40,486 nt of DNA from Gemmatimonadota bacterium (GTDB taxonomy: Bacteria > Latescibacterota > UBA2968 > UBA8231), in assembly GCA_002712305.1 (NCBI GenBank), contig PATE01000054.1, positions 42,105-82,590 of the forward strand, read 5' to 3'. The notes under the pieces were generated by a model. That model searched no databases. It was not told the origin of the DNA and saw only the letters and a program-made list of their open reading frames with translations. Positions 2,366-21,437 of this stretch are shown here, one piece after another; positions within the stretch are counted from its first letter, which is position 1; every line of letters begins with the position of its first letter. The translations under genes were made by a program, and so were the position numbers.

Positions 2366-3063
2366 TCAGGCTGCCCGCAGAATCTTGTGTTGATCCCCAT
2401 TGCCGGCGTGTGCCAGCGCATCCCTGATAACTGATGATGAAACTGCGTCGCCGCTGATCGGTTCGGTTGGCCAACGACCGATGTCACGTCAGGGCGTGAA
2501 AGAGCAGGACCGATCCCGCTTCGATCGGTACCGGCACGGCCCCATCGATGGACTCCTCTCCATGTTAAAAGGCGAGGTTGCAGAACCCGTCTTCGCGACG
2601 GGACCAGGGCTGCAAGCCTTGGAGATGACTGCCGGGGACCACCCACAGACAGCCATTGCCTTCGTCGCAGTCTGACAGGGGAATCCAAACCGACATTCTG
2701 CAGGCGCTGATCGACTGTTGTTGAGAGTAGGCATCGTCCTGATGCCAATGGCAGACGGTCTCATCGAGGGCAGGTTTTTCGACCATCTTCGCCGAGTAGA
2801 TGGCGATCCCGGATGGACGACGCCTTCGATCAGCGTCAAGAGGCGCTCATCTGCGCACAGGGCACGTGTGATCGCTGATCGCAGACCCAATTGGAGGATG
2901 ATGTTCTTCCGTTGGCCGTGCTGCTGGGCGCGGTCCTGCCGCAGTCTGTCGATTTCTGCATCGATTCGCTTGAGCTCTTGGGGGGGAAGACCCCTTCCAA
3001 GATGACGCAGCCTGATCGGTCGTACTCGACTTGCTGCGCGTGGGTCAGGGGCACCTGTCTCAA
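2366..3063 (-). pseudogene. Decayed phytanoyl-CoA dioxygenase (PhyH) family gene
   Basis: Reading the minus strand in three frames rebuilds one PhyH protein of about 232 residues. It starts at a TTG next to the mannonate dehydratase stop and ends DQHKILRAA. The Fe(II)/2-oxoglutarate ligands are still legible: WHQDD (HxD) and HRSLANRTDQRRRSF (distal His and Arg). The lesions are as follows. A frameshift lies at a run of seven Cs (2980-2986, FPP then QELKRID). A second lies at CCGGGATC (about 2805-2812). In-frame TAA is at 2565-2567. An in-frame TGA at 2484-2486 sits where the context reads HALT*HRSL, probably a former Trp. A third frameshift lies at about 2422-2424. It was the last gene of the GGT-M20-UxuA operon. 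Sequencing error might explain the indels, but the two stops favour genuine decay. Confidence 0.85.
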
Positions 3064-4037
3064 CCCCTGCGTTGGGTCTGCTGCAGAAGAGAACGGATAT
3101 AGCCGATGGCATAGGCCGTGCCGGCTCTCGAGCCTTCGTCACCTTGGATGCGCGGTGTGTGATCCATCATGAAGGGGCCCTCGAATCCGTGATCGAAGTA
3201 TGTCTGCATGGCGCGACCCATGTCGATGTCACCCTCGTCGAGGAAGACCTCGGTGAAACGTGGTAGCTGGCCACGGACATTGCGGAAGTGGACATACACG
3301 ATGCGCCCGCGTTCGGCCAACCGTGCGATCTCTCCGTAGACACCCTGGCCGAGCAGCTCCGTAAAGCACCCCTGACAGAACAGAAGGCCATTGGCGGGAT
3401 CGTCGACTTCGTCAAGAATCCGGTCAAACTGGGATACCGTCGAACAGATCTGTGCGACCCCGCCCAGAGGTTCGGCGATAGGAGGGTCATCAGGGTGCAG
3501 AGCCATGCGGACGCCGGCATCACGGGCAACGGGGATCACCCTTTTCAGGAAGGTGGACATATTGTCCCACATCCGATCCTCATGCCACGATTCTCCTGCC
3601 GTTGGCTCTTTACGCGTGGTGAGAAAGTGATCATAGTCAAAGGTCGAGTAGGCCACGTCACCACGACCGGAATCGGAGGGTGTGCGAAAGTTCCCCTTCG
3701 GCTTGAAGTTGTAGCCCAATGCTTCAATGCCTGACCCACCGACGGCGGTCAGCATCGTGCACCACGCATCCAGGGCCGCCTCACGTTGGTCTGTCCCATA
3801 GGTGATGTCATCCCACGCGGACATAAAGACACTCCATAACACCATGTCATACGTGGCGACTCGCTCGCAGGCCTCTGCCAGAAACGATGACATGTCCTGG
3901 CCGGCGCGGAAGCGCGGTCCGGGTGTGCCCTCCTCCATACTGCGAAGGTCCAGGTTGATTTGGTCCACGCCCAGGGAGGCATAGAAGCGCAGTGTGTCGT
4001 CGTTGAAATCTCGCCAGAGAACGTGTTCCTGGATCAT
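3060..4037 (-). CDS. uxuA: Mannonate dehydratase (UxuA family)
   Basis: This predicted cytoplasmic enzyme removes water from D-mannonate to give 2-keto-3-deoxygluconate, the step after uronate reduction in hexuronate breakdown. At 325 residues it is a little shorter than classical UxuA but has the family landmarks of the metal-dependent TIM barrel: GNFRTPSDSGRGDVAYSTFDYD (about 115-136), HPDDPP (H181), CQGC (C221/C224), VHFRNVRG (H250) and EVFLDEGDIDM (about 264-274), with a late DHTPR. The start is supported by GGGAG six bases upstream, inside the end of the M20 gene three bases away. The stop touches the start of the broken phyH. The operon setting with peptidase-like genes is unusual, so the natural substrate may be a related sugar acid. 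Confidence 0.82.
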   Translation of the reverse strand: MIQEHVLWRDFNDDTLRFYASLGVDQINLDLRSMEEGTPGPRFRAGQDMSSFLAEACERVATYDMVLWSVFMSAWDDITYGTDQREAALDAWCTMLTAVGGSGIEALGYNFKPKGNFRTPSDSGRGDVAYSTFDYDHFLTTRKEPTAGESWHEDRMWDNMSTFLKRVIPVARDAGVRMALHPDDPPIAEPLGGVAQICSTVSQFDRILDEVDDPANGLLFCQGCFTELLGQGVYGEIARLAERGRIVYVHFRNVRGQLPRFTEVFLDEGDIDMGRAMQTYFDHGFEGPFMMDHTPRIQGDEGSRAGTAYAIGYIRSLLQQTQRRG

Positions 4038-6969: not shown

Positions 6970-8070
6970 ATGCTGAATCTCACCATCCTCATCGTGATTG
7001 TGGTGGCATTCATCAGCCCCGTAGCAGCCGACCCTCAAAGCGACAGAGTTGAGCGACCGATGAACTATCACGTGTACGTTTCAAATAGCGGTAGCACCTT
7101 TCTCTCCCACTTTCTTCTCGACTCTTCCTCTGGAGAGCTTACCGTGCAGCCCGACATCGATCTGGGCGCTGCACCCGGTGCGCTTGCCACCGATGCCGTA
7201 GGGCGACGCATGTATGTATGTCTGCGGTCAGAGAAGCAGTTTGCCAGCTTCAACATCGATCCGGCAAGTGGGGGGCTGTCGAAGATCGACGCCACTCATG
7301 TCCCAGATGGTGCGCCCTATGTCTACACGGACAACACCGATCGATTCCTGCTGGCTAGTTACTACGGGGCAGGGCACGTGTCCGTGCACGCGATTGGCGA
7401 CGACGGCACGTTGTCTGACGAGCCGCTGCAGTGGATCGAGACCGACGGTCATGCTCACAGCATTCAGACGGATCGGTCCAATCGGTTCGCCTTCGTGCCG
7501 CATACGAATCCGGCGAATGTGATCTACCAGTTTCGCTTCGACGAGTCTACGGGCACACTATCTCCAAACGATCCAGCCACGATTCAACCGGCCACGCCCG
7601 AGGGACCCCGACACTTCGTCTTCCATCCGACCAAGAATCTTCTGTACTCCGTCAATGAAAATGGCAGCACCGTATCAGCCCATCACTTCGATGCGGACAA
7701 CGGTACGCTGACCTCTTTCCAGGTGATCTCGACGTTGCCCGATGGATTTGACGCATCAGACAACACGACGGCCGAGATCAAGATCGACCAGAGCGGCCGC
7801 TTCCTGTATGCCTCGAATCGTGGCCACGATTCGCTTGCCCTCTTCGATGTCGGTGATGATGGCACACTCACCCTTCGAGACCACTTTGCGACAGAGAAAA
7901 CGCCCCGATTCTTCGATCTGGACCCGACGGGAAAGTGGCTGTTGTCGGTGGGACAGAATTCGGGCCGCATGTCCGCCTATGCGGTGGAGGCCTCCGGTGC
8001 ACTGATACGGACGACGACGCACGAGGTGGGAGACGCGCCCTTGTGGATCGAGTACGTCGAGGCCAGGTAG
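6970..8070 (+). CDS. Secreted seven-bladed beta-propeller lactonase (Pgl/YbhE family)
   Basis: The fold is that of 6-phosphogluconolactonase of the YbhE type (PF10282), which opens sugar lactones. The first 20 residues form a signal peptide (MLNLTILIVIVVAFISPVAA), so this copy acts outside the cytoplasm on a non-phosphorylated lactone or a binding partner. The remaining 345 or so residues show repeated propeller blades of the type GRFLYASNRGHDSLALFDVGDDGTL. These include the family's EGPRHFVFHPT and NENGSTVSAHHFD strands. I chose the ATG at 6970 because GGAG stands seven bases ahead and the signal peptide begins there. The annotated upstream extension to 6607 lies antisense to the GGT gene and looks non-coding. 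It is transcribed away from the GGT operon and converges on a Gfo/Idh/MocA gene. Confidence 0.8.
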   Translation: MLNLTILIVIVVAFISPVAADPQSDRVERPMNYHVYVSNSGSTFLSHFLLDSSSGELTVQPDIDLGAAPGALATDAVGRRMYVCLRSEKQFASFNIDPASGGLSKIDATHVPDGAPYVYTDNTDRFLLASYYGAGHVSVHAIGDDGTLSDEPLQWIETDGHAHSIQTDRSNRFAFVPHTNPANVIYQFRFDESTGTLSPNDPATIQPATPEGPRHFVFHPTKNLLYSVNENGSTVSAHHFDADNGTLTSFQVISTLPDGFDASDNTTAEIKIDQSGRFLYASNRGHDSLALFDVGDDGTLTLRDHFATEKTPRFFDLDPTGKWLLSVGQNSGRMSAYAVEASGALIRTTTHEVGDAPLWIEYVEAR

Positions 8071-8083
8071 TCAGGGCCAGGTA
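8061..8083. repeat. Short direct repeat at the lactonase stop codon
   Basis: GGCCAGGTA occurs at 8061-8069 and again at 8075-8083, with a 14-base period. The first copy carries the lactonase stop (TAG). The repeat looks like a local duplication at the gene's 3' end. The convergent gap 8071-8124 has no clear terminator. Confidence 0.5.
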
Positions 8084-8124
8084 ATACGGAGTCGCTGCAG
8101 CAGGAACCGTTCGCCCAGGACACG

Positions 8125-9297
8125 CTACTCCCCAAGTCGCCGCTGTTCCTCCTCATGCCATTCGGCATCGACCGTGGGCATGGACTCGGGGTCACCTAGT
8201 CCGGCTTCCCGGCGCCAGCGGAGTAGGGGGTGTTCTCGGTCGACCTGCGGCAGATCGATTCGTCGACCATAGGCGGCCGACTCGAAAATGCCGCTGATAA
8301 TCTCGATCACATGGCGGCCTTCGGCACCGCTGCATTCATGGGGGCGTGCTTCGTCGAGGGCGCGAACATACTCCTCCACGAACCAGTAGTCCCCCTCCAT
8401 CATCTGCCCGCCATCCATGCCGTTCATAGCCGTCTCAAAGCTGTCTGGATACAGGGGCTCCAGCTTCTGCCACTGATCTTTGCCGTCCACGGGCAACACG
8501 TGAGGCGTCGGCAACCACCAGGCGGCATGGGGATGCCACAGCAGGCGTCCCTCCGTGCCATAGAGTTCCACCACATGGGCGTCGAGATTGAGTTTGTCGA
8601 AACCATGCTGAAGCAGAGTGCCCGTGACACCATTGCCAAACTGAAGAGAGGCGCTGACCCGGTCGCCGGCGATGGTGCCATTGCCGCGCGGGGCAGGTAG
8701 AACGTCTCGCGGGGTGATCGGTCGCCCGCGTGTGGTGGCGTGGGCCGTTACACTCTGACAGGGGCCGCCAAACTTGATCATCTGCGTCAGCAGATGCGTG
8801 CCGATCTCCATCAGACCAAATCCACCGTAGTATCCTTTGCCACTGGCGTAGATGTATCGCAAGTCACCGATCTTGCCCGCGTCGAAGGCACGAGTGATCG
8901 CTTGAGCCCAGGGATGCACCCGCCACTGGTGGTGGACGGCAATCTGAACACCTTTCTCGTCTGCTTTAGCCGCCACGGCATCCGCCTCGACCAGATCCAT
9001 CGCCATGGGTTTCTCCACATCGATATGAACGCCGTGCTCCAGTACGCGAAGGGCCAGGGGTGCATGCAGGGAGGGCGCCGTCGGAATCGCAACGATGTCG
9101 GGGTGGGTCTGTCGGATCATCTTGTCGAGATCGGTGAATCGGGCCTCCACCTGCAATTCGTCGCTGAGGGCATGGAGTCGGTCTTCCAGCAGGTCACACA
9201 ACCCCACGACCTCGGTCCTTGGATGGGCATGATACACGCGCCCGGCACACGTGCCGCGCGAACGGCAGCCCAGGATCGCAACACGATACGTTTTCAT
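8125..9297 (-). CDS. Gfo/Idh/MocA family oxidoreductase
   Basis: This is a predicted NAD(P)-dependent dehydrogenase acting on a sugar, cyclitol or sugar acid. An N-terminal Rossmann fold carries a GCRSRG nucleotide loop (about residues 10-15). The family's catalytic lysine sits in DVEKPMAMD (E95-K96-P97). The C-terminal alpha/beta domain includes HHQWRVHPW, and GLMEIGTHLLTQMIKFGG in the substrate pocket. The length of 390 residues is normal. There is no Tat or Sec signal, so it is cytoplasmic. The ATG at 9297 follows an AGGTAGGT stretch. It lies 12 bases downstream of a second member of the same family, so the two form a pair. Specificity is unknown. Confidence 0.85.
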   Translation of the reverse strand: MKTYRVAILGCRSRGTCAGRVYHAHPRTEVVGLCDLLEDRLHALSDELQVEARFTDLDKMIRQTHPDIVAIPTAPSLHAPLALRVLEHGVHIDVEKPMAMDLVEADAVAAKADEKGVQIAVHHQWRVHPWAQAITRAFDAGKIGDLRYIYASGKGYYGGFGLMEIGTHLLTQMIKFGGPCQSVTAHATTRGRPITPRDVLPAPRGNGTIAGDRVSASLQFGNGVTGTLLQHGFDKLNLDAHVVELYGTEGRLLWHPHAAWWLPTPHVLPVDGKDQWQKLEPLYPDSFETAMNGMDGGQMMEGDYWFVEEYVRALDEARPHECSGAEGRHVIEIISGIFESAAYGRRIDLPQVDREHPLLRWRREAGLGDPESMPTVDAEWHEEEQRRLGE

Positions 9298-9309
9298 ACC
9301 TACCTGTTC

Positions 9310-10431
9310 TTAAGAGGTTTCGCGACGCCAGACGTCGTATGGATTCTCTCTGTTGGACATGGGGAAACTCACGCGTCCCTTCACGCGCTGCGACTCGTGC
9401 ACGGCCATGACCATCTCGAGGGCGGCCAACGCATCGGCACCGCTGGATGCCTCGATGACATTGCGGTCTTGCTCGATGGCAGTCAGCAGTTCACGCACGA
9501 TCATCAGATTGCTGTGGTGCGTTCGATCACCGGGTGGAATCGCCTCCCAGTCGTCGATCAACACTCGCTCCCAGGCTACTGTCCCATCGGGGATGAACAT
9601 GCCATGCCGGTGGATGTACATCTCTCCATTGGGTGAGTTGCGCAGCGAAAGGATCCCTTTCGTGCCATGGGCCTCAAAACCGAAAGAGCGGCTGTTGACT
9701 CCCGCCTCTGGGTCGGCGGGGCGCGACTCAAAATGGGCGGTGACGCCGTTGGTGAACACGTAATAGGCGGCGAGCCGGTCTCCTGCGATGGATCCGATTC
9801 CCTCCGCACCGTCGTATGCGTCGTCGAGGGTGACATCGCGGTCACCTTGAGAGACGTGGGACTGTGCCCAGGAGACCTCGGCGCCAGCGAAGTAGCGCAT
9901 GCTGTCCATCATGTGCGGTCCCAGTACGGCTAGGTCTTCGGCGCCCGAGCGCCGATCCCACTTGCCCCGTGCCTTGAGCACCTGCAGGTCGCCGATTTCG
10001 CCGGCCTCCACCAGCCTCTTCCCGTATTGCTCATAGGGATTCGCTCGACGATGAGCCACTGCAACCTTCACATTGTGGGTTTCGCACGCTTCGAGCATGG
10101 CATCCGCTTCTGCCAGCGTTGCCGCCAACGGCTTCTCGCAGAAGATGCCGCGAACACCTGCCTCGGCGGCGGCGATGACCATGCGGGCATGGTGCGTGAC
10201 CACCCTCGGACACACATTGACGAGATCGACGCTCTCTTTCTCAAGCATCTCTCGATAGTCTGTGTAGAGATTCGACGCACCTGTTCGTGTTCCCGCATCG
10301 CCGAGTCCCTCCTCGTCCGCGTCGGCAACGGCCACGACCTCCACGTTGGATATGTCTCGATACACCACATCCAGGCCATGACCATAGTTCCCGTTGCCCG
10401 TGTGGCCGATGATGGCGGCTCTATACGTCAT
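9310..10431 (-). CDS. Gfo/Idh/MocA family oxidoreductase
   Basis: This is a second NAD(P)-dependent sugar or cyclitol dehydrogenase of the same superfamily. It has 373 residues from the ATG at 10431, which has AGGAAAG just upstream. The longer frame to 10530 adds a poor N-terminus. The Rossmann loop reads IGHTGNGNYGHG, a less common version of GxGxxG. The catalytic EKP is in GIFCEKPLAAT (E99-K100-P101), and the pocket has LGPHMMDSMRYFAG. It shares little with its neighbour beyond the family pattern, so they probably act on different intermediates. It is the first gene of the minus-strand pair and diverges from the PhyH gene at 10596. Confidence 0.86.
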   Translation of the reverse strand: MTYRAAIIGHTGNGNYGHGLDVVYRDISNVEVVAVADADEEGLGDAGTRTGASNLYTDYREMLEKESVDLVNVCPRVVTHHARMVIAAAEAGVRGIFCEKPLAATLAEADAMLEACETHNVKVAVAHRRANPYEQYGKRLVEAGEIGDLQVLKARGKWDRRSGAEDLAVLGPHMMDSMRYFAGAEVSWAQSHVSQGDRDVTLDDAYDGAEGIGSIAGDRLAAYYVFTNGVTAHFESRPADPEAGVNSRSFGFEAHGTKGILSLRNSPNGEMYIHRHGMFIPDGTVAWERVLIDDWEAIPPGDRTHHSNLMIVRELLTAIEQDRNVIEASSGADALAALEMVMAVHESQRVKGRVSFPMSNRENPYDVWRRETS

Positions 10432-10595
10432 TGTCTTTCCTATCTGTCTTTCCCATATAGCGCGTCGAGGCAGGTTTCCCACACAAACGACCCGCTTGCC
10501 TTTTGCTCGCTTATCTTGTTGCTCACTCACATTCTAAGCAATAGTCCACGACTCACCACGACCCTCCTTTTCGTCTACGACGGAGACGCCTGGCC
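10432..10595. promoter_or_regulatory. Divergent intergenic region, Gfo/Idh pair and PhyH-glycosidase pair
   Basis: This 164-base gap lies between the divergent starts at 10431 and 10596 and should hold both promoters. No good -35/-10 pair is visible. CGTCT (10572-10576) and AGACG (10584-10588) form a small inverted repeat that overlaps the PhyH ribosome site (GGAG, 10582-10585). Five base pairs is too few to claim regulation. Confidence 0.4.
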
Positions 10596-11456
10596 ATGTC
10601 TGACACCTTCGTTCGCCCCTTTCCGGCGCTCACGCCGGCGCAGAGATATCATCTCGATGTCTTCGGGTACGTCGTCATTGAGAACACCCTGACCACGATC
10701 GAAGTAGAGCGCCTGCTGGACGCGATGCAACAACTCAAGGCCGATTTGATTGCCGCCGGAGAGGGTGGGGTCGTGCGAGGCTGCCGCCTGAGTGCGAGAC
10801 ATGAGCACCATTGCCACTTCGCCCATATCCTGGAAGCCGATCCGGCGATCTACGACTACCTCACCCACCCACGACTCGTCGGCCTGGCAGAAGAACTGGT
10901 TGGGGGGTCGGTTCGACTGGAAGAGTCAGAGGCTGTCATCAATCATCGGCCAGATCCGGCACCCGCCCTTGACGCTCCTTACGGTTTCCACACGGGCACG
11001 ATGCCCGATCAGGGAACCTACACCGAGAACGGGTTGTTCCACTGCACGTTCGTCAAGACGCTGACGAACCTCACCGACCTGGGGCCTGATGATGGGGGGA
11101 CGGTCTGCATCGCAGGTAGTCACAAGATCAAGGCGCCGCGTGAGCAGATCATCGCATGCGCCGAGGAAGATCGTTCTCTCGTGCATCAGGTCATTGCACC
11201 GGCGGGTTCGACGCTCCTGTTCGGAGAATCCCTGATCCATGCAACTGGTCACATTCGCTCAGACCGTGAGCGGGTCATCGTGATTGGAGGCTATACGCCC
11301 ACCATGTTCCAGGCATGGAATGGGCAGGAGCCAAGTGCCGCCTTCGTTGAAGCGGCCGAACCTCGGCACCGCGCTCTTCTGTCAGGAAGTGATCGCTGGA
11401 ATTGGCAGCGGCAACACCGGACCCTCGACATGCCCGTTCATCAAGATGCCGACTGA
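10596..11456 (+). CDS. PhyH-family protein with HTG in place of the HxD iron motif
   Basis: The fold is phytanoyl-CoA dioxygenase-like, a double-stranded beta helix of Fe(II)/2-oxoglutarate enzymes. The N-terminus has the usual QRYHLDVFGYVVIEN opening. The core contains DDGGTVCIAGSHK (about 165-177), and the distal ligand region has LIHATGHIRSDRERV (H215, with R224 or R226). Where active dioxygenases have HxD, this protein reads FHTGTMP (H132-T133-G134). Known Fe/2OG halogenases lack the carboxylate at this position, but degenerate or differently coordinated PhyH proteins also occur. Asp138 or another residue might substitute. The length of 286 residues is normal. It starts at an ATG with GGAG ten bases ahead and ends two bases before the glycosidase gene, so the two form an operon. 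Confidence 0.8.
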   Translation: MSDTFVRPFPALTPAQRYHLDVFGYVVIENTLTTIEVERLLDAMQQLKADLIAAGEGGVVRGCRLSARHEHHCHFAHILEADPAIYDYLTHPRLVGLAEELVGGSVRLEESEAVINHRPDPAPALDAPYGFHTGTMPDQGTYTENGLFHCTFVKTLTNLTDLGPDDGGTVCIAGSHKIKAPREQIIACAEEDRSLVHQVIAPAGSTLLFGESLIHATGHIRSDRERVIVIGGYTPTMFQAWNGQEPSAAFVEAAEPRHRALLSGSDRWNWQRQHRTLDMPVHQDAD

Positions 11457-11458
11457 CG

Positions 11459-12973
11459 ATGGAACAACCCAGCATCATCACCGGAGATTTTCAGGTCGAT
11501 GCCCTGCTGCCGGCAGTCCGGTCATTTCTTTCGCAAGACACCGTCGACTACTGCATTGATGGGCAGGTTGTGCACGGGTACCGTAGTTCAGACTGTCCCG
11601 CGCTCTGGATTCGCGATCACTCTGACATGCTGCGCGGGGCACGCTATTTCGATCCGGACATGACCAGTGCCGTGACTCACTTCGCCGAGACTCAACTCGG
11701 CAATGGTTCGTTTCACGACTTCGTCAGCTGCAACATGGATCGGGAGAACTGGACCAAATATGTGCGAGTGCCCGTAGAGGCAGATGTCGAGTATCGTTGG
11801 GTGAAAGCCCTATTTCTCGCATGGCAGGCGACGGGAGACGATGAGTGGATGGCGTCCATGTTGCCCCATGCGGAACGGGCGATGGCCTATATCCAGTCTC
11901 ATCCCTGGCGCTGGAGCCAGGAACATGGTCTGGTCAAGCGCGCGCTGACGATGGACACATGGGATTTCGACTACGTGCGGGCCGATCAGCCGTGGCTCAA
12001 TTTCCAGATCACCGATGAGACGCATTGGGGCATCTTCCACGGTGACAACTCCGGTTACTACGAAGCGTATCGATGTCTGGCACGACTCTATCGGCACCTC
12101 TCAGATGAGGCCGCGGCCAATCGGTGGGAGAAGGAGGCGGCTCAACTGCGGCAGGCAACCAACGACCTGTGCTGGAATGGATCCTTCTATGCGCACCGTG
12201 TGCCCCTGGACGAGTTTCGCATTGATGGCGTGGACGAATCGACACAGTTGAGTCTATCGAATCCTATGGCGATCAATCGAGGATTGGCGTCGTGCGAACA
12301 GGCCCAGGCGATGCTGGATGAGTACATCCAACGGGCACAGGTGGGGTCAAGTTTTGCGCCGTGGTACTCCATCGATCCACCCTTTCCGGATGGGTGCTTC
12401 GGAGACCCACTCCTGGTGGGGGGAGCCTACATCAATGGTGGCATCTTTCCACTGGTGGGTGGCGAACTCGCGCGTGCTGCTTTCGCCAACGGGCGTGAGC
12501 GATTGGGCGTGGAGACTCTACGGCGATACGCCGATCTGATCGCTGCAACCGGGGAGACCTATCTGTGGTATTTTCCGGACGGCCGTCCCTCCTCGGTGGA
12601 AGCCAGTACAAGCCCTGAAGCGACGGCCACCGATGGCTGGGGATCCTCGGCCATACTCTTCGGGTTGGTCGAAGGTCTGGCGGGTGTGACCGATGTGGAT
12701 GCCTGTTTTCGGCGAATCGAGATTTCACCTCGCTGGGCGGCGGCCGAGATCGAAACGGCAAGGGTCCACATGGCTTACGCCGCCAGTGGGGCCGGCGTGG
12801 GCTACGTCTATGAGCAGGGCACGGACGGGTGTCGGTGCTGCCTCTATGCCGATGGCGCGACTGTGCGCTGCTGCCTGCGGGCAAAGACCTGGTGGGGATG
12901 GAAATCGGCGGTCAGCGTGTGGAGTGTGCTCGAACCGTGGTGGGTGAATCGGTCTATGCGGATGCGGATCTGA
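11459..12973 (+). CDS. Six-hairpin (alpha/alpha)6 glycosidase-like protein, C-terminus frameshifted
   Basis: This is a predicted glycoside hydrolase of the six-hairpin clan (GH63/GH78/amylo-glucosidase-like); the exact family is uncertain. Helical-barrel landmarks include CPALWIRDHSDMLRGARYF near the N-terminus, DETHWGIFHGDNSGYYEA mid-protein, NGGIFPLVGGELARAAF, and a late DGWGSSAILFGLVEGLAGV. Beta-rich residues follow. The open frame gives 504 residues but ends in an unnatural Trp/Arg-rich tail (KTWWGWKSAV...). A shift of one base at about 12863-12876 leads into the tail LPAGKDLVGMEIGGQRVECA... ending ELRFT at 13014, which looks native. The full product would be about 518 residues. No signal peptide is seen. 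It follows the PhyH gene by two bases. Confidence 0.7.
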   Translation: MEQPSIITGDFQVDALLPAVRSFLSQDTVDYCIDGQVVHGYRSSDCPALWIRDHSDMLRGARYFDPDMTSAVTHFAETQLGNGSFHDFVSCNMDRENWTKYVRVPVEADVEYRWVKALFLAWQATGDDEWMASMLPHAERAMAYIQSHPWRWSQEHGLVKRALTMDTWDFDYVRADQPWLNFQITDETHWGIFHGDNSGYYEAYRCLARLYRHLSDEAAANRWEKEAAQLRQATNDLCWNGSFYAHRVPLDEFRIDGVDESTQLSLSNPMAINRGLASCEQAQAMLDEYIQRAQVGSSFAPWYSIDPPFPDGCFGDPLLVGGAYINGGIFPLVGGELARAAFANGRERLGVETLRRYADLIAATGETYLWYFPDGRPSSVEASTSPEATATDGWGSSAILFGLVEGLAGVTDVDACFRRIEISPRWAAAEIETARVHMAYAASGAGVGYVYEQGTDGCRCCLYADGATVRCCLRAKTWWGWKSAVSVWSVLEPWWVNRSMRMRI

Positions 12974-13009
12974 CCGTCGACGGCCAGACCATCGTCGAAC
13001 TGCGGTTCA

Positions 13010-13026
13010 CCTGACCCGTGGTCAGG
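13010..13026. terminator. Weak hairpin at the native glycosidase stop
   Basis: CCTGAC (13010-13015) and GTCAGG (13021-13026) form a perfect six-pair stem with a CCGTG loop. It spans the TGA at 13012-13014 that ends the shifted frame. It lies in the convergent gap before the minus-strand PhyH gene. No T-tract follows on either strand, so termination is only a guess. Confidence 0.3.
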
Positions 13027-13055
13027 CCCGCTTCGTCATCAGGCCCCAACCCCCG

Positions 13056-13907
13056 TCAGACCTGCTCCCAGCGACTGGGTGCCATGCCGCGTTCGCCACG
13101 TCCCATGTCGTCGGTTTTGTTCGTCGCATCGAAGTCCCACTCGCGTGTATTCGGGTCACCGAACAAGGGCCGCACGCGCTCGGGCAGGGCAGCCACACGC
13201 TGTTCATCCCAAGCCTCCACCTCTGCGATAGGCCCCGCCCAGGCAGGCCGATAGGCGATGGCCAGCATGGAGCGCTCCTTGGCGCCTGTGTTGGGCAGCG
13301 TACCGTGGAAGACACGGTGATTGAGAAACAACGCTGACCCCGCCCGACACGGCACAACGACCTCCTCCGGATGTGACTCGTAGCGGCTGTACGGATTCGC
13401 CTGAGCGTGCAGACTCAGATGGGACCGGGGCACCACACGGAAGGGCGAAACGTCGAGAGTGAGATCGTCGAGATAGTAGAGGACGCGGATCGTCGCAGGA
13501 CACGAACCATTCAGGCCGAAGATCTTCGATCCATAGGGCTGGCCATCCGTGTGCAGGCTGATCCCGGGCGTACCAGGTTCAGAACGGTCGTAGCCGTAAC
13601 TCAGAAACAGGATCTGATCTCCAAAGACGGCGCGCAGCAGTTCGAGGGTAGGCTCGTGAGCGATCAGGTCCGTCGCAGGACCCCCTTCCCACTGAACATC
13701 TCTGCGACCACGTTGGTGAGGGCTGTAGTCGCGCGGGACCGTCTCCCATGTCGCGGCCTGTGTCTTCAGGCGTGCCAGATGGTCTTCATCCAGCAGATCC
13801 GGGACGATCAGATACCCTTCCAACTCGATCTGCCGGATTCGATCTCCCAGGCTCAGCGCCGCCCAGTCCCGATCGTCGATTTGGATGTCATTCGTCTGTT
13901 TCTCCAT
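13056..13907 (-). CDS. PhyH-family Fe(II)/2-oxoglutarate dioxygenase
   Basis: This is a predicted oxygenase hydroxylating a small organic substrate with 2-oxoglutarate as co-substrate. The active site looks complete: SLHTDGQ (H119-T120-D121), FHGTLPN (H201) and KERSM (R212, for the co-substrate carboxylate). The core SPFRVVPRSHL strand is typical of the family. It has 283 residues from the ATG at 13907, which has GGAGG seven bases ahead. A GTG directly before it is in frame but too close to that site. The ATG shares one base with the stop of the upstream gene (TGATG), so it is coupled to the unknown carbohydrate-binding-like protein. Family members are too diverse for the substrate to be named. 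Confidence 0.85.
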   Translation of the reverse strand: MEKQTNDIQIDDRDWAALSLGDRIRQIELEGYLIVPDLLDEDHLARLKTQAATWETVPRDYSPHQRGRRDVQWEGGPATDLIAHEPTLELLRAVFGDQILFLSYGYDRSEPGTPGISLHTDGQPYGSKIFGLNGSCPATIRVLYYLDDLTLDVSPFRVVPRSHLSLHAQANPYSRYESHPEEVVVPCRAGSALFLNHRVFHGTLPNTGAKERSMLAIAYRPAWAGPIAEVEAWDEQRVAALPERVRPLFGDPNTREWDFDATNKTDDMGRGERGMAPSRWEQV

Positions 13908-15313
13908 CACAGAACCTCCACCTCGATATCATCAAACCAACTGCTTCCCACACCATCCTGTCGCAGAGAGATCTCGACAGCACTTGCCTCTGGGGGTGGG
14001 GGACCGGTGATCTCCAGTCGCAGTTGAGTCCAATCCGCATCGCCGCGGACATAGTCCGTCACACGGATGGGATACCGCTCGGGTACATTGAAGATAATCC
14101 AGCGAAGCCCCAGGCACGCGCCGCGGCCGACGAGATCTCTGGTCTTGACCCAGACACTGACGCGCAGTCCCGTCGATTGACGCCATCGCTGGGTGAAGGC
14201 TCCCTCGCCCTCCCTGTCCATCGACCACAGACTGACACCCGGTCGTTCTCGTTCGATCTTCAGGCTGTGGTCGTCACTACGACCCGTATCATGGCACCAG
14301 TCTGCCCCTTCTCCCTGGGGGAGCCATGGCCAGGGGCCAGGATCTCCCGCGGATTCGTTTAGTTTCTGCCCCCGAGAGAAACTCGACAGTCTCTCGTAGG
14401 CGGGCAGTTCCTCGAATCCACCAAACTCGACCGCCGGGGGACGGGGCGCTGTCTGTCGCATCTTCTGCACGACGGGTGGCGGGCAGAGGCGCACCCGAAA
14501 GCGCTCGCTGATGTCGCTGTAGAGCTCATCACGCGAGTACTGACCGGCCAGATGGATGTCGTAGCCCCAGTTGCACACGCCCACCCGCGTGCGCGCCGCC
14601 GAAGCGCCGACAAACTGAAAAGCGGGACTCGGCACCGTGTCGGTGGCATCGGCCAGCACGAAATACGAATCGGCGGCGAACTGCTCGGGCCTGGTGATCC
14701 CGGTGGCCAGGTGATTGAGGGGCATCTGCCACGCCGACCCGTCAGTCGATTGGGCCAGGAGGCGATCATACCCCCGTCCACTCCACGCGCCATCGAACTC
14801 AATCGTCGGTGCGGGGATATCGGTGAACCAGGGGTCACTGTACTCGAAGGAATGGCTCTCTACTCCGGGAAGATCAAATGTCTCCGGCGCATGGAGCTCC
14901 AAGTGGCAGGCAAATTCGTACACATAGCTGCCATCTTCCTCATCATACGTGATGTCGATGATCCGGCGTGATGTGGCGACCCCCCCGGGGTCGGCGGTGA
15001 TGACGGTGAGTCTCAGGTGACCTGAGCCTCGGCCCTCGACACTTACATCGACCACATCGGAGGTGATGATGTCCCGTCCCAGAACCCAGTACAGATGAAC
15101 ACCATCCACGAGTGGTTTCTGGTGTGGGGCCAGCGAGAGGGATCGCAGTAGAATTGGGCGGGGGTTCTTGTTGAAGTACCGCAGATTCTGTTCCGGTTGC
15201 TCTACCTCCACATGTTGTAGTTCGGCGATGGGCTGGTCACCATCATGGATCCATTCCGGGCCGGCGGTGACACCACCGCGGGTCTTGAGATCAAAACTGG
15301 GACTATGCGTCAT
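13907..15313 (-). CDS. Unrecognised protein with a jelly-roll, carbohydrate-binding-like C-terminus
   Basis: The protein has 468 residues from the ATG at 15313 (MTHSPSFDLK). I cannot assign a family to the first 340 or so residues. They are rich in beta-strand-like sequence, Trp and Tyr, and refer to no obvious catalytic motif. The last 120 residues look like a galactose-binding-type jelly roll: HSLKIERERPGVSLW, a TGLRVSVWVKTRDL strand, then DWTQLRLEITGP, and a final GSSWFDDIEVE signature common in CBM-like domains. No signal peptide is visible, and the longer frame to 15376 does not add one. It lies 22 bases downstream of the GH4 gene and overlaps the next PhyH gene by one base. That suggests a role in handling a glycoside or glycan. 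Confidence 0.6.
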   Translation of the reverse strand: MTHSPSFDLKTRGGVTAGPEWIHDGDQPIAELQHVEVEQPEQNLRYFNKNPRPILLRSLSLAPHQKPLVDGVHLYWVLGRDIITSDVVDVSVEGRGSGHLRLTVITADPGGVATSRRIIDITYDEEDGSYVYEFACHLELHAPETFDLPGVESHSFEYSDPWFTDIPAPTIEFDGAWSGRGYDRLLAQSTDGSAWQMPLNHLATGITRPEQFAADSYFVLADATDTVPSPAFQFVGASAARTRVGVCNWGYDIHLAGQYSRDELYSDISERFRVRLCPPPVVQKMRQTAPRPPAVEFGGFEELPAYERLSSFSRGQKLNESAGDPGPWPWLPQGEGADWCHDTGRSDDHSLKIERERPGVSLWSMDREGEGAFTQRWRQSTGLRVSVWVKTRDLVGRGACLGLRWIIFNVPERYPIRVTDYVRGDADWTQLRLEITGPPPPEASAVEISLRQDGVGSSWFDDIEVEVL

Positions 15314-15335
15314 TTTTTGATGGACCACCGTCGTG

Positions 15336-16708
15336 TTACGCGTCCCACATGCGTGGCATGCGGAAGGCCTTGCCATTCTTGAAGAAACTGCCCATCTCGT
15401 GGGCGGCGATCATTTCGTCACACATCTTGCGGATATCATCGATCGACAGTTCCGCGGAGGTGTGCGGGTCGAGCATGGCTGCCTGATACACGGCATCTCT
15501 GTTGCGTTGGAATACAGCATCCAGCGTGACCAACTGCGTACTGATGTTGGTTCGATTCAGACCCGCACACTGCTCTGGAAGGTCACCGACGAAGGTGCCC
15601 TGAACACCATTTCGATCGACGAGGTAGGCGATCTCGACGACGCAGTTGTGGGGCAGGTTGGTAATGTAATTGCCATCGTTGAGGATGTTTCCGCCGATCC
15701 GATAGGGGATGTCGGTCTCCATGGCCTCCATGATGTAGGAACCATACTCGTGAGTACGGGTATGGCTCAGTTTCGCATTCCGTGTCAGTTCCTTGCTCTG
15801 CGTCTTCCAGCGTTCGATCTGCCGAATACAGCGCCGTGGGTATTCATCCAGCGGAATATTGAACTCCTCGATCAGTTCAGGATAGTTGGATTTGATCCAA
15901 TAGGGCATGTATTCGGAACTGTGTTCGGAGGACTCGGTGATGTAGTAACCGAAGTGGCGCATCAACTCCAGGCGCACCATGTCGCGGGGCTTGTCAGCCC
16001 CCTTCTTGCGGGCCTCGCGCACGATCCGAGCGGCACGACGCCTGATCTCCGGATAGAGGTCCTTTTCGCCATCGGTGATCTCCAGCAGCCATGCCTGATG
16101 ATTGATGCCGGCGATCTTCCACTGCAGGTCCCTGGCGGGGGGCATGCCGACGTATTCGAGCAAGCGAGGTGCGCAGACCTGAACCGAATGACACAACCCG
16201 ACGCCCAGGATGCCGGTTCCACGCAGGAGCGCACCGGTGACGGCGCACATGGGATTGGTACAGTTGAGGAACCACGCATCCGGACAGACCTGCTCCATAT
16301 CCTGACCGAAGGCCATCACGCGGGTGCCGTTCGCAGCGTGCGGAATAGACCACCGATGCCGATCGTATCGGCAATGGTCTGGCGCAGGCCGTATTTCTTC
16401 GGGATCTCGAAATCGATGACCGTCGACGGCTCATAACCACCGACCTGGATCGCATTGACCACGTAGGTGGCGTCTTTCAGCGCCGCCTTGCGCTGGGGTT
16501 TTCCAAGATGGGCCGTGATTTTCGCCCGGCCCTTGTTCGTATTCCGATTCAGCGTCTGAAGCATCTTCTTGGATTGGCGGAGGCGTTTCCCCTCGATGTC
16601 ATACAGCGCGATGTGGGCATCGTGAAGAGCGGGGCTGAGCATGGTGTCGCCGAGGATATTCTTGGCAAACACCGAAGAGCCCGCGCCCATGAAGGTGATC
16701 TTCGACAT
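15336..16708 (-). pseudogene. GH4 NAD-dependent glycosidase (MelA-like), split by a frameshift
   Basis: GH4 enzymes cleave glycosides by transient oxidation at C3 with NAD and a divalent metal. Two abutting frames make one protein of about 457 residues, normal for the family. Frame one (16708 to 16316) has the NAD loop GAGSSVFAKNILGD and VVNAIQVGGYE, then stops after RTLRTAPA. Frame two (16319 to 15336) continues with FGQDMEQVCPDAWFLNCTNPM, the metal-binding GLCHS, GINHQAWLL, and a conserved end. Either an extra CG in CCCGCGTGATGG or a missing base at about 16316-16325 breaks the frame. The start at 16708 has AGGAAG nine bases upstream. If not a sequencing indel, the enzyme is inactive, because half one lacks the metal site. 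I do not think the halves are two subunits. Confidence 0.85.
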
Positions 16709-16751
16709 GGCTTACGACTTCCTCTGCAGTTGATGTCTCAACACGGGTGTC

Positions 16752-17783
16752 TCAAAGGTCGATAGCGATCTCGCGACCTTCGGAGGCCGAATCGATGGAG
16801 CCGAAGACCATGGCCAGACTCTTGATGTTGTCATGGGCGACCGTCTCGGGTTCACCACCATGACGGACACGATCGATGAATTCTCGCATCAGCCCTGTGT
16901 GATGACCGATACGATCGTCCGGGGCGCTGTCGGGAATGGTGAGGGGAGACATTTCGGATCGAAAATCGCCGGACTGGCTCACGCTTTCTCCGTGGATCCC
17001 CTCACCCCCATCCCACAGGACCGAGCCGCGTTCGCCCACGATCCGCCAGTCGCTTTCCCAGGTGGTATTCATCCCTTCTGCACACCAACTTCCTCGATAG
17101 GTGAAGACAATGCCGTCGGTCATTTCAAAGACAGCCACGGCGTTGGCTCCATGGGCGAACCATGACCCGGACGAATTCCACTCCCGGCAATACACGCGAA
17201 CCGGATCGGCACCACTGATCAGCCGCGCTGCGTCGAAGGTATGAATGGCCATGTCGAGCAGCAGTACGTGATCCATCTGGGCGCGAAATCCACCAAAGTG
17301 AGCCCCCAGATAGAAGTCGGCATCGACGCTGGTCAAAGGGCCGATGGCGTCACTGTCGAGCAATCGCCGCAGTCGCCGAATGTTGGGATCATACCTGCGA
17401 TTCTGAATGACTGCGTAGATCCGGTTCGCCTTGCGGGCTGCCTCCAGCGAGGCTCTGGCGTTGGCCATGGAGTCGGCCAATGGCTTTTCCCCCAATACGT
17501 GACACCCGTGCTCCAAGGCGGTCGTCGTCACGTGGGTGTGCGCCTCGGGCACGGTACAGTCAAACACGACATCCGGCCTCAACTCTTCGAGGAGGCGAAC
17601 CATGTCCGTGCCGGTCTGGGCCTGGCTGAGTTCGTATTCATCGCGCCGGGCGAGGGCTCGATCGGCATCGAGATCGACGAGGCCTACGATCTCGACATCA
17701 TCCAACGTGGCCGCCGCGCCCAACCAGGCGCCACTCATCCCACCGCATCCCACCAACAGGGCACGGACCGAACTGTCACTCAT
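16752..17783 (-). CDS. Gfo/Idh/MocA family oxidoreductase
   Basis: This is the third predicted NAD(P)-dependent sugar dehydrogenase in the island. It has 343 residues. The nucleotide loop reads VGCGGMSGAW, close to the family GxGxxG. The catalytic lysine is in VLGEKPLADS (E99-K100-P101). The pocket has LLLDMAIHTFDAARLISG, with the family histidine, and NRRYDPNIRRL ahead of it. There is no signal sequence. It starts at the ATG at 17783 with only a weak purine stretch upstream. It lies 43 bases upstream of the GH4 gene on the same strand, so the two are probably co-transcribed. A dehydrogenase beside GH4 fits redox handling of a keto-sugar, but this is inference. Confidence 0.87.
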   Translation of the reverse strand: MSDSSVRALLVGCGGMSGAWLGAAATLDDVEIVGLVDLDADRALARRDEYELSQAQTGTDMVRLLEELRPDVVFDCTVPEAHTHVTTTALEHGCHVLGEKPLADSMANARASLEAARKANRIYAVIQNRRYDPNIRRLRRLLDSDAIGPLTSVDADFYLGAHFGGFRAQMDHVLLLDMAIHTFDAARLISGADPVRVYCREWNSSGSWFAHGANAVAVFEMTDGIVFTYRGSWCAEGMNTTWESDWRIVGERGSVLWDGGEGIHGESVSQSGDFRSEMSPLTIPDSAPDDRIGHHTGLMREFIDRVRHGGEPETVAHDNIKSLAMVFGSIDSASEGREIAIDL

Positions 17784-17839: not shown

Positions 17840-19561
17840 TCAAGCCGATACATCTTCGGCGACGTCTTCGGATCGTCGTCCACCAAAACGCACGATGAGG
17901 ATGATACAGATGGCTCCCAGGATCAACCCGACCCCACCCGGATACAGGGCCGCCGTCCCAAGGTAGCCGACGGTGGCCGCTACGATCATCGTCATGACCG
18001 CGTAGGGCATCTGTGTCTTCACATGGTCGAGATGGTCACAGCCGGCAGCCACCGACGACAGGACAGTGGTGTCACTGATGGGGGAGCAGTGGTCACCGAA
18101 GATGCTGCCGTCGAGAACGGCGGCGGCCGTCATCACCGTCAGCGGCAGGCCACCCAGTTCGTGGGCGAGGGGGACAGTCGTGGGCAACAGGATCGCCATC
18201 GTCGTCCACGATGTGCCGATCGAGAAGGCCACCACCGCCGCCAGCAGGAACACGAGAAGAGGCACCGTCGCAGGCGGAAGTGACGTTCCCAGCAAGGCCA
18301 CGAGATAGTCGGAGGTCCCCACGGCACTGCAGGCCTCCTTGATTGCCCAGGCGAGCACGAGGATCACGAGGGCGCGATGGAATCCGGTCACGCCGCCGAG
18401 CCAGGTCGAGGCAGCCAGGCGTGGCGAGATCGGCCGATGGCCCTGTTCGGTACGGCGGGTGACGGCGATGAGCATGGCCACCACGGTACCGAGAACGGCC
18501 GACAGGAACATGACTTTGGCCCCGTCGGCGTTCGAGAAGACGGTGCTCCAGTACAACTGACTCAGCGCAGATACCTGCTGTCGAGCTTCGACGACGGCAG
18601 GCACCGACCAGGCATCGGCCTGCATGCCGACGACGACACCCACGATGACCAGACCTACTGGAATCGCTGCCCACACCCAGTTTGGGGTGAGCCCGGCGGG
18701 CATCTCAAGTCCGTCGGTTTCGTGTCCGTCCATGGCTTTGGCCCCCGGACGAAGGACCTGCCCGTGAACCAGAGCGCGATTCTCGGCGTGCAGCATGGGG
18801 CCGAAATCGCGACGCCACCAGACATTGGCAGCCACAAAGACAAGGGCAAACCAGCAATAGAAGCGGACGCTGAGGGCGCGAAAGAACAACTCGTATCCGG
18901 AGACGCCCGTGGACAAGTTGTCCATGGCATCCTGAAAGAGCCCGACTTCATAACCGATCCAGGTAGAGATCAGGGCGACACCGGCGACAGGAGCCGCTGT
19001 GGAGTCGACGATGTAGGCCAGCTTCTCGCGAGGCACGCGGAATCGATCGGCGACGGGGCGCATCGTCGTGCCGACGACGATCGTATTCGAGTAGTCGTCG
19101 AAGAACACGGCCAGTCCCAACAAGAACGTCGCTCGCCGTGCCGTGGCGGTCCCGTCAGCGCGTCGTGCGAGAGCCTCGGCAATGCCTCGTGTCCCACCCG
19201 CAAGAGACACGACCCGTACCATGCCGATGAGACCTGCCGTGAAGGCGAGGATGTAGAGTTGGAAGGAATCGCTCAGCGGCTGCCAGACGAAATCGACCGC
19301 CGAGGTTCGCAGCACCCAGGCCACGGCAGAGAGCGGGCCCATGTCGGGGGGCAGAACCAGGATGGCCGCACCGACGAGGGCCGTGCAGAGCCCCAGCACG
19401 AGCCATCCTGTGACGATGGCGACGGCGATGGCGACCAGAGGGGGTAGGAGGCTCAGCCCCCCGTGTGGGGTGCCTTCAGCGGGCAACAGCCAGCCCACTA
19501 CGAGAGCACCGGCGATGGCGGCAGCATAACGCAGCGTCAGACCCCGCACGATTCGCTCCAC
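17840..19561 (-). CDS. NhaC-family sodium/proton antiporter
   Basis: This is a predicted inner-membrane antiporter of 573 residues with about 11-13 membrane segments. Family landmarks are FDDYSNTIVVGTTMRPV (about 155-171), the following DSTAAPVAGVALISTWIGYE, and late FGDHCSPISDTTVLSS. These are the core ion-site motifs of NhaC/YqkI-type transporters. A charged cytoplasmic loop falls near the middle. The start is GTG, one base after the stop of the upstream symporter gene (TGA-C-GTG), so the two are tightly coupled. Sodium entering with solute through the symporter could be expelled here. The substrate ion (sodium or another) is inferred from the family. Confidence 0.85.
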   Translation of the reverse strand: MERIVRGLTLRYAAAIAGALVVGWLLPAEGTPHGGLSLLPPLVAIAVAIVTGWLVLGLCTALVGAAILVLPPDMGPLSAVAWVLRTSAVDFVWQPLSDSFQLYILAFTAGLIGMVRVVSLAGGTRGIAEALARRADGTATARRATFLLGLAVFFDDYSNTIVVGTTMRPVADRFRVPREKLAYIVDSTAAPVAGVALISTWIGYEVGLFQDAMDNLSTGVSGYELFFRALSVRFYCWFALVFVAANVWWRRDFGPMLHAENRALVHGQVLRPGAKAMDGHETDGLEMPAGLTPNWVWAAIPVGLVIVGVVVGMQADAWSVPAVVEARQQVSALSQLYWSTVFSNADGAKVMFLSAVLGTVVAMLIAVTRRTEQGHRPISPRLAASTWLGGVTGFHRALVILVLAWAIKEACSAVGTSDYLVALLGTSLPPATVPLLVFLLAAVVAFSIGTSWTTMAILLPTTVPLAHELGGLPLTVMTAAAVLDGSIFGDHCSPISDTTVLSSVAAGCDHLDHVKTQMPYAVMTMIVAATVGYLGTAALYPGGVGLILGAICIILIVRFGGRRSEDVAEDVSA

Positions 19562-19562
19562 G

Positions 19563-21437
19563 TCACTCGGTGTCGGCGAGGGCCTTGATTTCGTCCCGAG
19601 GGGCCGTCGACATCTCCAGTTTGAAAGCCAACAGATACATCATCAATACCCCTGCGAGCCACCAACAGAATTGCCATATCCACAGGGTTGGAATCCCCAT
19701 CGACCACTGAGCCGGGTCGGTTTCATTGCCCAATACGGCGAAAGGACCAATGGCACCCAGGAACCAGATGATGGTGAAGATCCAGATGGGGATCTTCCAG
19801 GTACGACGTTCCGGTGGCAGCGCGGTGTGCTCTTTCAGGAAATTGTGGAAACCGTCCCGGTGTTGTTGCTGATCTGCCTGCGTCGGCTGAGTGAAGGCAC
19901 TGACCAGAACACACGTTCCAAGGTTGAAGAGAATTCCCCATCCGGCGGAGTGAATCGTGAGGGGGTATCGGCCGATTCCGATCAAAGCACCCAACTCGGT
20001 GACGTAGGTGAAGGTCACGGCCAGGACACCGGCGATCAGACCGGCCACAACACCTCGCGGCGTGAACCACCGGATGTAGCAGATGCCCAGCAGGGCGGGC
20101 CACATCTGGAATCCATAGGACACGGCAGCTCCGCCCAGCAACACCAGTAGATCGCCTGAGGCCAAGCCGACGAGCAGAGCCATCGATACCACCACGAAGA
20201 CGGTGACGCGGCCCACCAATACCTGGGCTCCGTGGGAGGCTTCCCTGTTGAAGAAGTGGCGATACAAGTCGCGCGTTACGATCCCAGAGGCAGTGGACAT
20301 GTAGGCAGCGCCTGTGGACTGCATCGCAGCCAGGGCGCAGACACACAACAGGCCCACAAGCCAGGGGGCCTTGTCTGCCAGGGTGCTGATCAGATAGGGC
20401 ACCAGATAGTCGGAGGAGGGAACACCCAGTGCCTCGCCGCCCGGAATGAGGCCCCGATCGAGCATCGTTCCACCCAGGCCCTGAACGGCGGTGAAGGTGA
20501 ACAGGATGCCACCGATAATGAGGGACGAGGCCACGACCTGTTGCAGCGGAAAGGGACGTGGATCCTTGTTGGCAAAGGCCCACATGCTGAAGGCGGGGGC
20601 CGATTGAATCCCCATCAGAGCAAACATGTAGGTGAGAATCATCAGCCCCGTCCACGGACCACCGGCGGCATCGAGGAACATCGTGCCGTGGCGCTCAAGG
20701 AAGGAGGCGGACTCGGGGCGTGTCGGGATGGCCACCATATCAGGCGCCTGCTGTGCCAGGCCCGCCAGACCCGTCTTAAACGGTGACCAGCCGCCGACCA
20801 GGTCGAGAGCCACAATACCGAGGGCGATGATGCCGAGGGCGAGTAGAATACACTGGGCGCAGTCGACGTAGGCGACCGATCGCAGGCCGCCCGAGGCGAC
20901 ATAGATGAAGACGACGACCGACAGCAGGATCGCCCCGCCTTCGATCGAGCCCAGGAAGCTCTGCTGTAGGATGGTGCCTTCCACGAGCCGGCTGAACAGG
21001 ATGCCGGACGCACGCAACTGAATGCCTAGATAGGGGACAGAAAAGATCATCGCCACCACCACCGTCAGGATGCGCATGGCATCGGTGCGGTAATAGTCGG
21101 CAAACATTTCGCCAGGCGTGATATAGCCGTAGCGCTTGCCGAGTAGCCACTGTCGCTTCAGAAACATGACGCCCGTGAAGGGAATCGTGATCGCATAGAA
21201 GGAGGCGAATGCGTAGGGAAGGCCCACATTGTAGATCGACCCCGGATGGCCGACGAAGGTCCAGCCCGAGAAGGAGGTCGCCGTCGCCGCCAGGACGAAG
21301 ACCCAGATGCCGATGCTGCGACCGGCGAGGAAGTAGTCACTGGCCGTCCGTGCCTGCCTGGCGCCTTTTACGCCCCAGAAAATGCAGTAGGACCAGTAGC
21401 CGATCGTGAACACGACCAGCCAGATCAGCTTCTCCAT
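19563..21437 (-). CDS. Sodium/solute symporter (SSS family) with extra C-terminal membrane module
   Basis: This is a predicted sodium-coupled importer of 624 residues. The first 490 or so form a standard SSS core: ASDYFLAGRSIGIWVF, ATATSFSGWTFVGHPG, and a late AALAAMQSTGAAYMSTASGIVTRDLYR. The last 120 residues are additional. A hydrophilic linker is followed by two more hydrophobic segments around WKIPIWIFTIIWFLGAIGPF and GIPTLWIWQFCWWLAGVLMM. This resembles the small two-helix partner proteins of some SSS transporters, here fused in one chain. The ATG at 21437 has GGGAG nine bases ahead. It is 38 bases downstream of glutamate dehydrogenase and coupled to NhaC. Neighbouring gdh hints at an amino or organic acid, not proven. 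Confidence 0.85.
   Translation of the reverse strand: MEKLIWLVVFTIGYWSYCIFWGVKGARQARTASDYFLAGRSIGIWVFVLAATATSFSGWTFVGHPGSIYNVGLPYAFASFYAITIPFTGVMFLKRQWLLGKRYGYITPGEMFADYYRTDAMRILTVVVAMIFSVPYLGIQLRASGILFSRLVEGTILQQSFLGSIEGGAILLSVVVFIYVASGGLRSVAYVDCAQCILLALGIIALGIVALDLVGGWSPFKTGLAGLAQQAPDMVAIPTRPESASFLERHGTMFLDAAGGPWTGLMILTYMFALMGIQSAPAFSMWAFANKDPRPFPLQQVVASSLIIGGILFTFTAVQGLGGTMLDRGLIPGGEALGVPSSDYLVPYLISTLADKAPWLVGLLCVCALAAMQSTGAAYMSTASGIVTRDLYRHFFNREASHGAQVLVGRVTVFVVVSMALLVGLASGDLLVLLGGAAVSYGFQMWPALLGICYIRWFTPRGVVAGLIAGVLAVTFTYVTELGALIGIGRYPLTIHSAGWGILFNLGTCVLVSAFTQPTQADQQQHRDGFHNFLKEHTALPPERRTWKIPIWIFTIIWFLGAIGPFAVLGNETDPAQWSMGIPTLWIWQFCWWLAGVLMMYLLAFKLEMSTAPRDEIKALADTE

Follow-up and report, generated by a model that had tools for sequence, protein, structure and literature searches.

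A stretch of Gfo/Idh/MocA, PhyH and glycosidase genes in a Latescibacterota-type genome is probably a lineage-specific mosaic

Do eight neighboring genes from oxidoreductase, oxygenase and carbohydrate-related families make up a dedicated catabolic pathway, or have they come to lie side by side within one lineage? The question is raised by a 9.7-kb stretch (positions 8125-17783) of a 40,486-nucleotide window (G000:C75:42105-82590), by which we mean the whole stretch of DNA analyzed, from a Latescibacterota-type metagenome-assembled genome (MAG) of 4.77 Mb in 146 contigs. The stretch encodes three Gfo/Idh/MocA oxidoreductases (Gfo1 to Gfo3) and two PhyH proteins (PhyH1 and PhyH2), families that the initial annotation of this DNA had recognized and of which all five members score above the Pfam gathering score, together with a GH4 glycosidase, a six-hairpin glycosidase-like protein and a 468-residue protein that we call U468 (Table 1). 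That annotation had proposed a redox-type island in which a glycoside is oxidized to a keto-sugar, cleaved, and then reduced or oxygenated. Comparison with related genomes suggests that the stretch is probably a lineage-specific mosaic of genes from very large families and not a dedicated island for redox glycoside catabolism.

The eight genes are scattered outside the genus

Around the orthologs in related genomes we took about 10 kb of flanking sequence in both directions, where contigs allowed, and searched these loci with all window proteins. Best matches outside the genus share 70 to 80% identity for PhyH1, 60 to 74% for PhyH2, up to 84% for GH4, 52 to 62% in most cases for U468, up to 68% for the six-hairpin protein and 45 to 66% for Gfo3. 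Despite these clear orthologs the eight genes were never found side by side outside the genus, and in the loci read there no two of them occur together as orthologs within about 10 kb. The nearest case to co-location is a PhyH1 paralog (44 to 54% identity) separated from GH4 by one gene in two genomes (G007 and G019), and GH4 has neighbors in common only among close relatives. Two pairs alone recur outside the genus: PhyH1 with the gene for a lactonase-type propeller protein, and the genes for an SSF sodium:solute symporter and an NhaC-type antiporter (SSF-NhaC), which are adjacent, independently of the catabolic genes, in 16 other genomes of family f1. G018 and G024 each consist of a single contig, and in both of them PhyH1, PhyH2 and SSF-NhaC are separated by roughly at least 0.9 Mb.

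One congener shares the gene order and differs at a variable junction

Within the genus the comparison covers one genome, G001, which is syntenic over nearly the whole 40-kb window. It carries orthologs of PhyH1, the six-hairpin gene, PhyH2, U468, GH4 and Gfo3 at 76 to 90% identity (Gfo3 at 81%). The tight run Gfo3-GH4-U468-PhyH2 is found in two species of the genus, and intact GH4 and six-hairpin orthologs do occur in the same region as U468 in the congener; neither arrangement was seen at the loci examined in other genera. The initial annotation had named rare co-occurrence, or an order unique to one assembly, as speaking against its island, and the order that we observe comes close to this, being found in exactly two congeneric genomes. 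Since nearly the whole window is syntenic anyway, gene order in G001 says little about function, and we rejected it as proof of a pathway.

Gfo1 and Gfo2 are missing from the congener, as are the UxuA-like gene and the broken PhyH gene at 2445-2789, for which the 9 bp between LptE and M20 in G001 leave no space. In the window this PhyH remnant adjoins the UxuA-like gene. The junction between the lactonase gene and PhyH1 (8071-10595) takes four states in four genomes: Gfo1 plus Gfo2 in G000, another, distinct PhyH gene on the opposite strand in G001 (L081:10237-11191), and, in the two genomes of another genus in which the lactonase-PhyH1 pair recurs, nothing (G005, L191) or a 442-residue gene without a Pfam family (G012, L192:7927-9240). 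Gfo1 and Gfo2 were most likely inserted into this variable junction even later, at the level of the species.

Large gene families can account for the local density

The G000 genome holds 107 Gfo/Idh/MocA matches and 152 matches to PhyH (PF05721), some of the latter being partial or representing a single gene in two pieces; of 14 control genomes, just 1 gave a PF05721 match. A comparably large and diverse PF05721 set has been described in Poribacteria, in which six single-cell genomes contain 305 such sequences (PMC3909097), although these belong to another phylum, and PhyH1 here carries a variant metal motif (HxG). The stretch is the densest Gfo and PhyH spot of the genome and its only 9.7-kb stretch with at least five of them. 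When 107 and 152 members were placed at random, however, three Gfo and two PhyH genes fell somewhere within 9.7 kb in 7% of simulations (P ∼0.07), and the mean number of anchored 9.7-kb stretches with at least five members was 0.37. The clustering is therefore unremarkable for families of this size, and, the stretch having been picked after the data were seen, its density is no evidence for a module. In this phylum, enzyme families that are large and scattered readily give the appearance of catabolic islands, and relatives need to be checked first; as a pathway, the stretch is of little importance.

Comparison with described keto-glycoside loci

Described loci for 3-keto-glycosides (3-ketotrehalose or 3'-ketolactose) combine Gfo or LacABC dehydrogenases with DUF1080 hydrolases (PMC9007349). 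The window resembles them in its Gfo proteins and carbohydrate theme. An AP_endonuc_2 gene lies about 4 kb from Gfo1 and is absent in the congener. The window differs in that there is no DUF1080 gene in the window and in that its members are not conserved together across lineages. The initial annotation was right about DUF1080, the sole match in the genome lying on another contig (C66:32611-33183) beside two Gfo genes (33931 and 34907), but mistaken in finding no xylose-isomerase-like partner, since the UxuA/AP_endonuc_2 gene matches both families above cut-off. If the genome has a keto-glycoside locus of the described type, it sits on C66. Against the NCBIfam models for BT_2158 and BT_2159 (NF058561 and NF058563), Gfo1 to Gfo3 score 15 to 37 bits, below the respective cut-offs of 750 and 650 for membership in these glycoside/disaccharide 3-dehydrogenase families.

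Frameshifts interrupt both glycosidase genes in this assembly

The GH4 gene has both the N- and C-terminal Pfam domains of its family, spread over two frames, with a frameshift that splits it into two open reading frames. Scored separately against PRK15076 (alpha-galactosidase MelA), the halves reach 384 and 173 bits, the cut-off of 486 applying to the whole protein. The gene also contains an NCTNPM motif and a CHSV motif, the latter of which we take to be the alpha-galactosidase motif of GH4; our literature search on the CHSV motif found nothing. The likeness to MelA thus lies in the match of both halves and in the motifs, and the differences are the broken frame and the lack of any partner gene conserved between lineages. 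In the congener the gene is intact (457 residues, 88 to 90% identity).

The six-hairpin assignment is plausible, but its support is weak. By itself the protein matches only GH94 (E value of 0.002), and phmmer with this one sequence returned nothing useful; the family as a whole, as opposed to the single protein, matches GH116, GH78-6H and MGH1 at about 1e-5, and a comparison with structures gives an exo-beta-D-arabinofuranosidase at 4e-7. Its C-terminal part lies in another frame, and again the congener gene is intact. Among the about 20 genes set against their counterparts in the congener, 2 have broken frames, namely those for the glycosidases. The GH4 and six-hairpin identities given in the initial annotation stand, the second with less assurance, for genes that are both broken in this assembly; the breaks imply either sequence error or decay.

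U468 keeps its own neighbors

U468 belongs to no Pfam family, the best match being CBM_4_9 at an E value of 0.0034 in 2 of 22 members, and a PDB sequence search gave nothing below an E value of 0.18. In the AlphaFold model (predicted local distance difference test score [pLDDT] of 88) the C-terminal domain is a jelly roll resembling CBM16/CBM22, in agreement with the carbohydrate-binding-like tail noted earlier. Modeled alone (pLDDT of 87), the N-terminal domain is predicted to form a galactose-mutarotase-type supersandwich. Its Foldseek neighbors are GalM-like proteins, the periplasmic P1 domain of YidC, GH38 C-domains and MdoD, with E values of 2e-4 to 8e-4 (3dcd and 4bze) and 4e-5 to 8e-5 (9awt, YidC and MdoD); as the TM-scores (template modeling scores) are only 0.36 to 0.50, the assignment is one of fold class and not of function. 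Three residues (H201, D252 and H254) are invariant in the family alignment.

The U468 family has matches in 27 of 119 genomes, mostly of Latescibacterota type. In family f1 its recurrent neighbors are a MoxR-type AAA protein, a 611-residue protein without a Pfam family, amidohydrolases, Ldh_2 and a CoA-transferase, and in family f4 they are heparinase-like, RraA-like and 3-hydroxyisobutyrate-dehydrogenase-like proteins and Ldh_2. The MoxR-type AAA gene and the conserved 611-residue protein lie beside U468, and divergent from it, in many f1 genomes (for example L116:7138-8973 and L116:8970-9998; also L103, L110, L111, L118 and L121). We considered whether U468 belongs with GH4 and rejected this, as many genomes with U468 lack a close GH4 ortholog and U468 has its own neighbors there.

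Mosaic, operon or decaying locus

We favor a mosaic in which an older left unit (lactonase-PhyH1) and an older right unit (SSF-NhaC) would flank metabolic genes (six-hairpin, PhyH2, U468, GH4 and Gfo3) that other members of the family carry one by one at scattered positions; most likely no joint mechanism would unite all eight genes. A pathway in which the Gfo proteins make and reduce 3-keto-glycosides and a PhyH protein oxygenates them, as first suggested, is highly improbable. The gene families are present, and an AP_endonuc_2 gene is in the window as well, but that gene, Gfo1 and Gfo2 are absent from the congener, the DUF1080 hydrolase gene has two other Gfo genes for neighbors on C66, both glycosidases have broken frames in this assembly and U468 normally keeps unrelated neighbors. 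In GH4 enzymes a bound NAD serves to oxidize C3, after which the aglycone is eliminated and the sugar re-reduced; this redox step is internal, and no separate Gfo protein is therefore needed for a keto-sugar.

Several observations weigh against the mosaic. Gfo3, GH4, U468 and PhyH2 all run in one direction, spaced by 43 and 22 bp and in one case overlapping by 4 bp, and the congener keeps them at the level of identity given above, as expected of an operon; the comparison within the genus covers only that congener; and many of the relatives are fragmented MAGs, for which reason some contigs end near the gene. At most, we infer, the genus may have assembled a single transcription unit, SSF-NhaC-Gfo3-GH4-U468-PhyH2, whose products could take up and degrade an alpha-galactoside-like sugar; GH4 would then perform the NAD-dependent oxidation at C3, the elimination and the re-reduction by itself. 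That this recent, genus-level operon exists and degrades an alpha-galactoside-like compound, through import by the symporter, cleavage by GH4, sugar handling by U468 and oxidation of the sugar or aglycone by Gfo3 and PhyH2, strikes us as unlikely. Its genes all lie on the minus strand with gaps of at most 56 bp and in identical order in the congener, GH4 belongs to the MelA subfamily, and the U468 N-terminal domain has the mutarotase-related fold neighbors listed above. Order is weak evidence, however, in a congener that keeps nearly the whole 40 kb; SSF-NhaC is older and found without the other genes, U468 and Gfo3 are found without GH4, GH4 is frame-broken here, and in a scan for promoters and terminators no signal clearly exceeded that of shuffled sequences. 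A decaying locus, compatible with the mosaic, would have had functional glycosidases in the ancestor of the genus; this species would now be in the course of losing them, GH4 and the six-hairpin gene being broken already, along with a PhyH gene close by. The restriction of frame breaks to the two glycosidases and the PhyH fragment with internal stops fit such decay, but protein similarity goes on after each shift, and assembly errors can leave single-base indels in a MAG; we regard this account as quite doubtful.

PhyH1 has an invariant HxG in place of the HxD metal motif

PhyH1 is a more interesting lead than the supposed pathway. It reads FHTG where iron(II)/2-oxoglutarate (Fe/2OG) enzymes of the superfamily have the metal-binding HxD, and the H-x-G, the distal His and the Arg are invariant in 30 of 30 homologs (including L155-L166 and L235-L252). 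In a weak profile alignment (E value of 0.014) the Gly falls on the HxD Asp of ectoine hydroxylase EctD (4mhr, WHSD). The neighboring PhyH2 keeps the canonical HTD, which is also kept in its orthologs apart from HAD in one. The HXG/A motif has been used to pick out Fe(II)/alpha-ketoglutarate halogenases (PMC11186838), which PhyH1 resembles in its H-x-G, distal His and Arg, although we found no sequence-level kinship of PhyH1 to a halogenase. A two-His iron site can also hydroxylate, as described for AspH (PMC10947486). The nearest solved relative of PhyH1 is annotated as an "oxidase/hydroxylase" (4xcb/4xc9, E value of ∼1e-14), in an alignment that starts just after the HxG stretch. From these motifs, the PhyH1 family is a candidate halogenase-type or two-His Fe/2OG group. 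It is possible, though we hold the idea tentatively, that PhyH1 represents a large, unremarked 2-His/Gly group of the PhyH superfamily in Latescibacterota-type bacteria, perhaps of halogenases or unusual Fe/2OG enzymes, and that U468 represents a new carbohydrate-active family mostly of the same phylum. If the HxG of PhyH1 works as a halogenase-type center, an uncultured lineage would hold a widespread and directly assayable group of candidate halogenases.

Features of the window

Table 1. Coordinates, strand and supporting evidence for genes and gene remnants in and around the stretch (positions are those of the window).
Feature	Position	Strand	Evidence
PhyH fragment with internal stops, lineage-specific	2445..2789	-	PF05721 at C75:44549-44893; 1 TGA, 1 TAA
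UxuA/AP_endonuc_2, xylose-isomerase-like TIM barrel	3060..4037	-	PF03786 137 bits, PF01261 47 bits, both above cut-off
Lactonase-type 7-bladed propeller	6979..8070 (start approximate)	+	PF10282 222 bits
Gfo1, Gfo/Idh/MocA oxidoreductase	8125..9297	-	PF01408 77 bits
Gfo2, Gfo/Idh/MocA oxidoreductase	9310..10431	-	PF01408 70 bits
PhyH1, Fe/2OG-type, HxG for HxD (H132-T-G134, H215, R226)	10596..11456	+	PF05721 61 bits
Six-hairpin-type glycosidase-like protein, C terminus frameshifted near 12844	11459..12973	+	Weak family matches
PhyH2, canonical LHTDG metal motif	13056..13910	-	PF05721 53 bits
U468, predicted mutarotase-type supersandwich (residues 1-300) and CBM16/22-like jelly roll (∼302-467)	13907..15313	-	Alignment, models, fold searches
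GH4 (MelA-like), frame-broken at 16316-16319	15336..16708	-	PF02056 124 + 51 bits, PF11975 194 bits, two frames
Gfo3, Gfo/Idh/MocA oxidoreductase	16752..17783	-	PF01408 61 bits
NhaC-type Na+/H+ antiporter	17840..19561	-	PF03553 176 bits
SSF sodium:solute symporter	19563..21437	-	PF00474 113 bits

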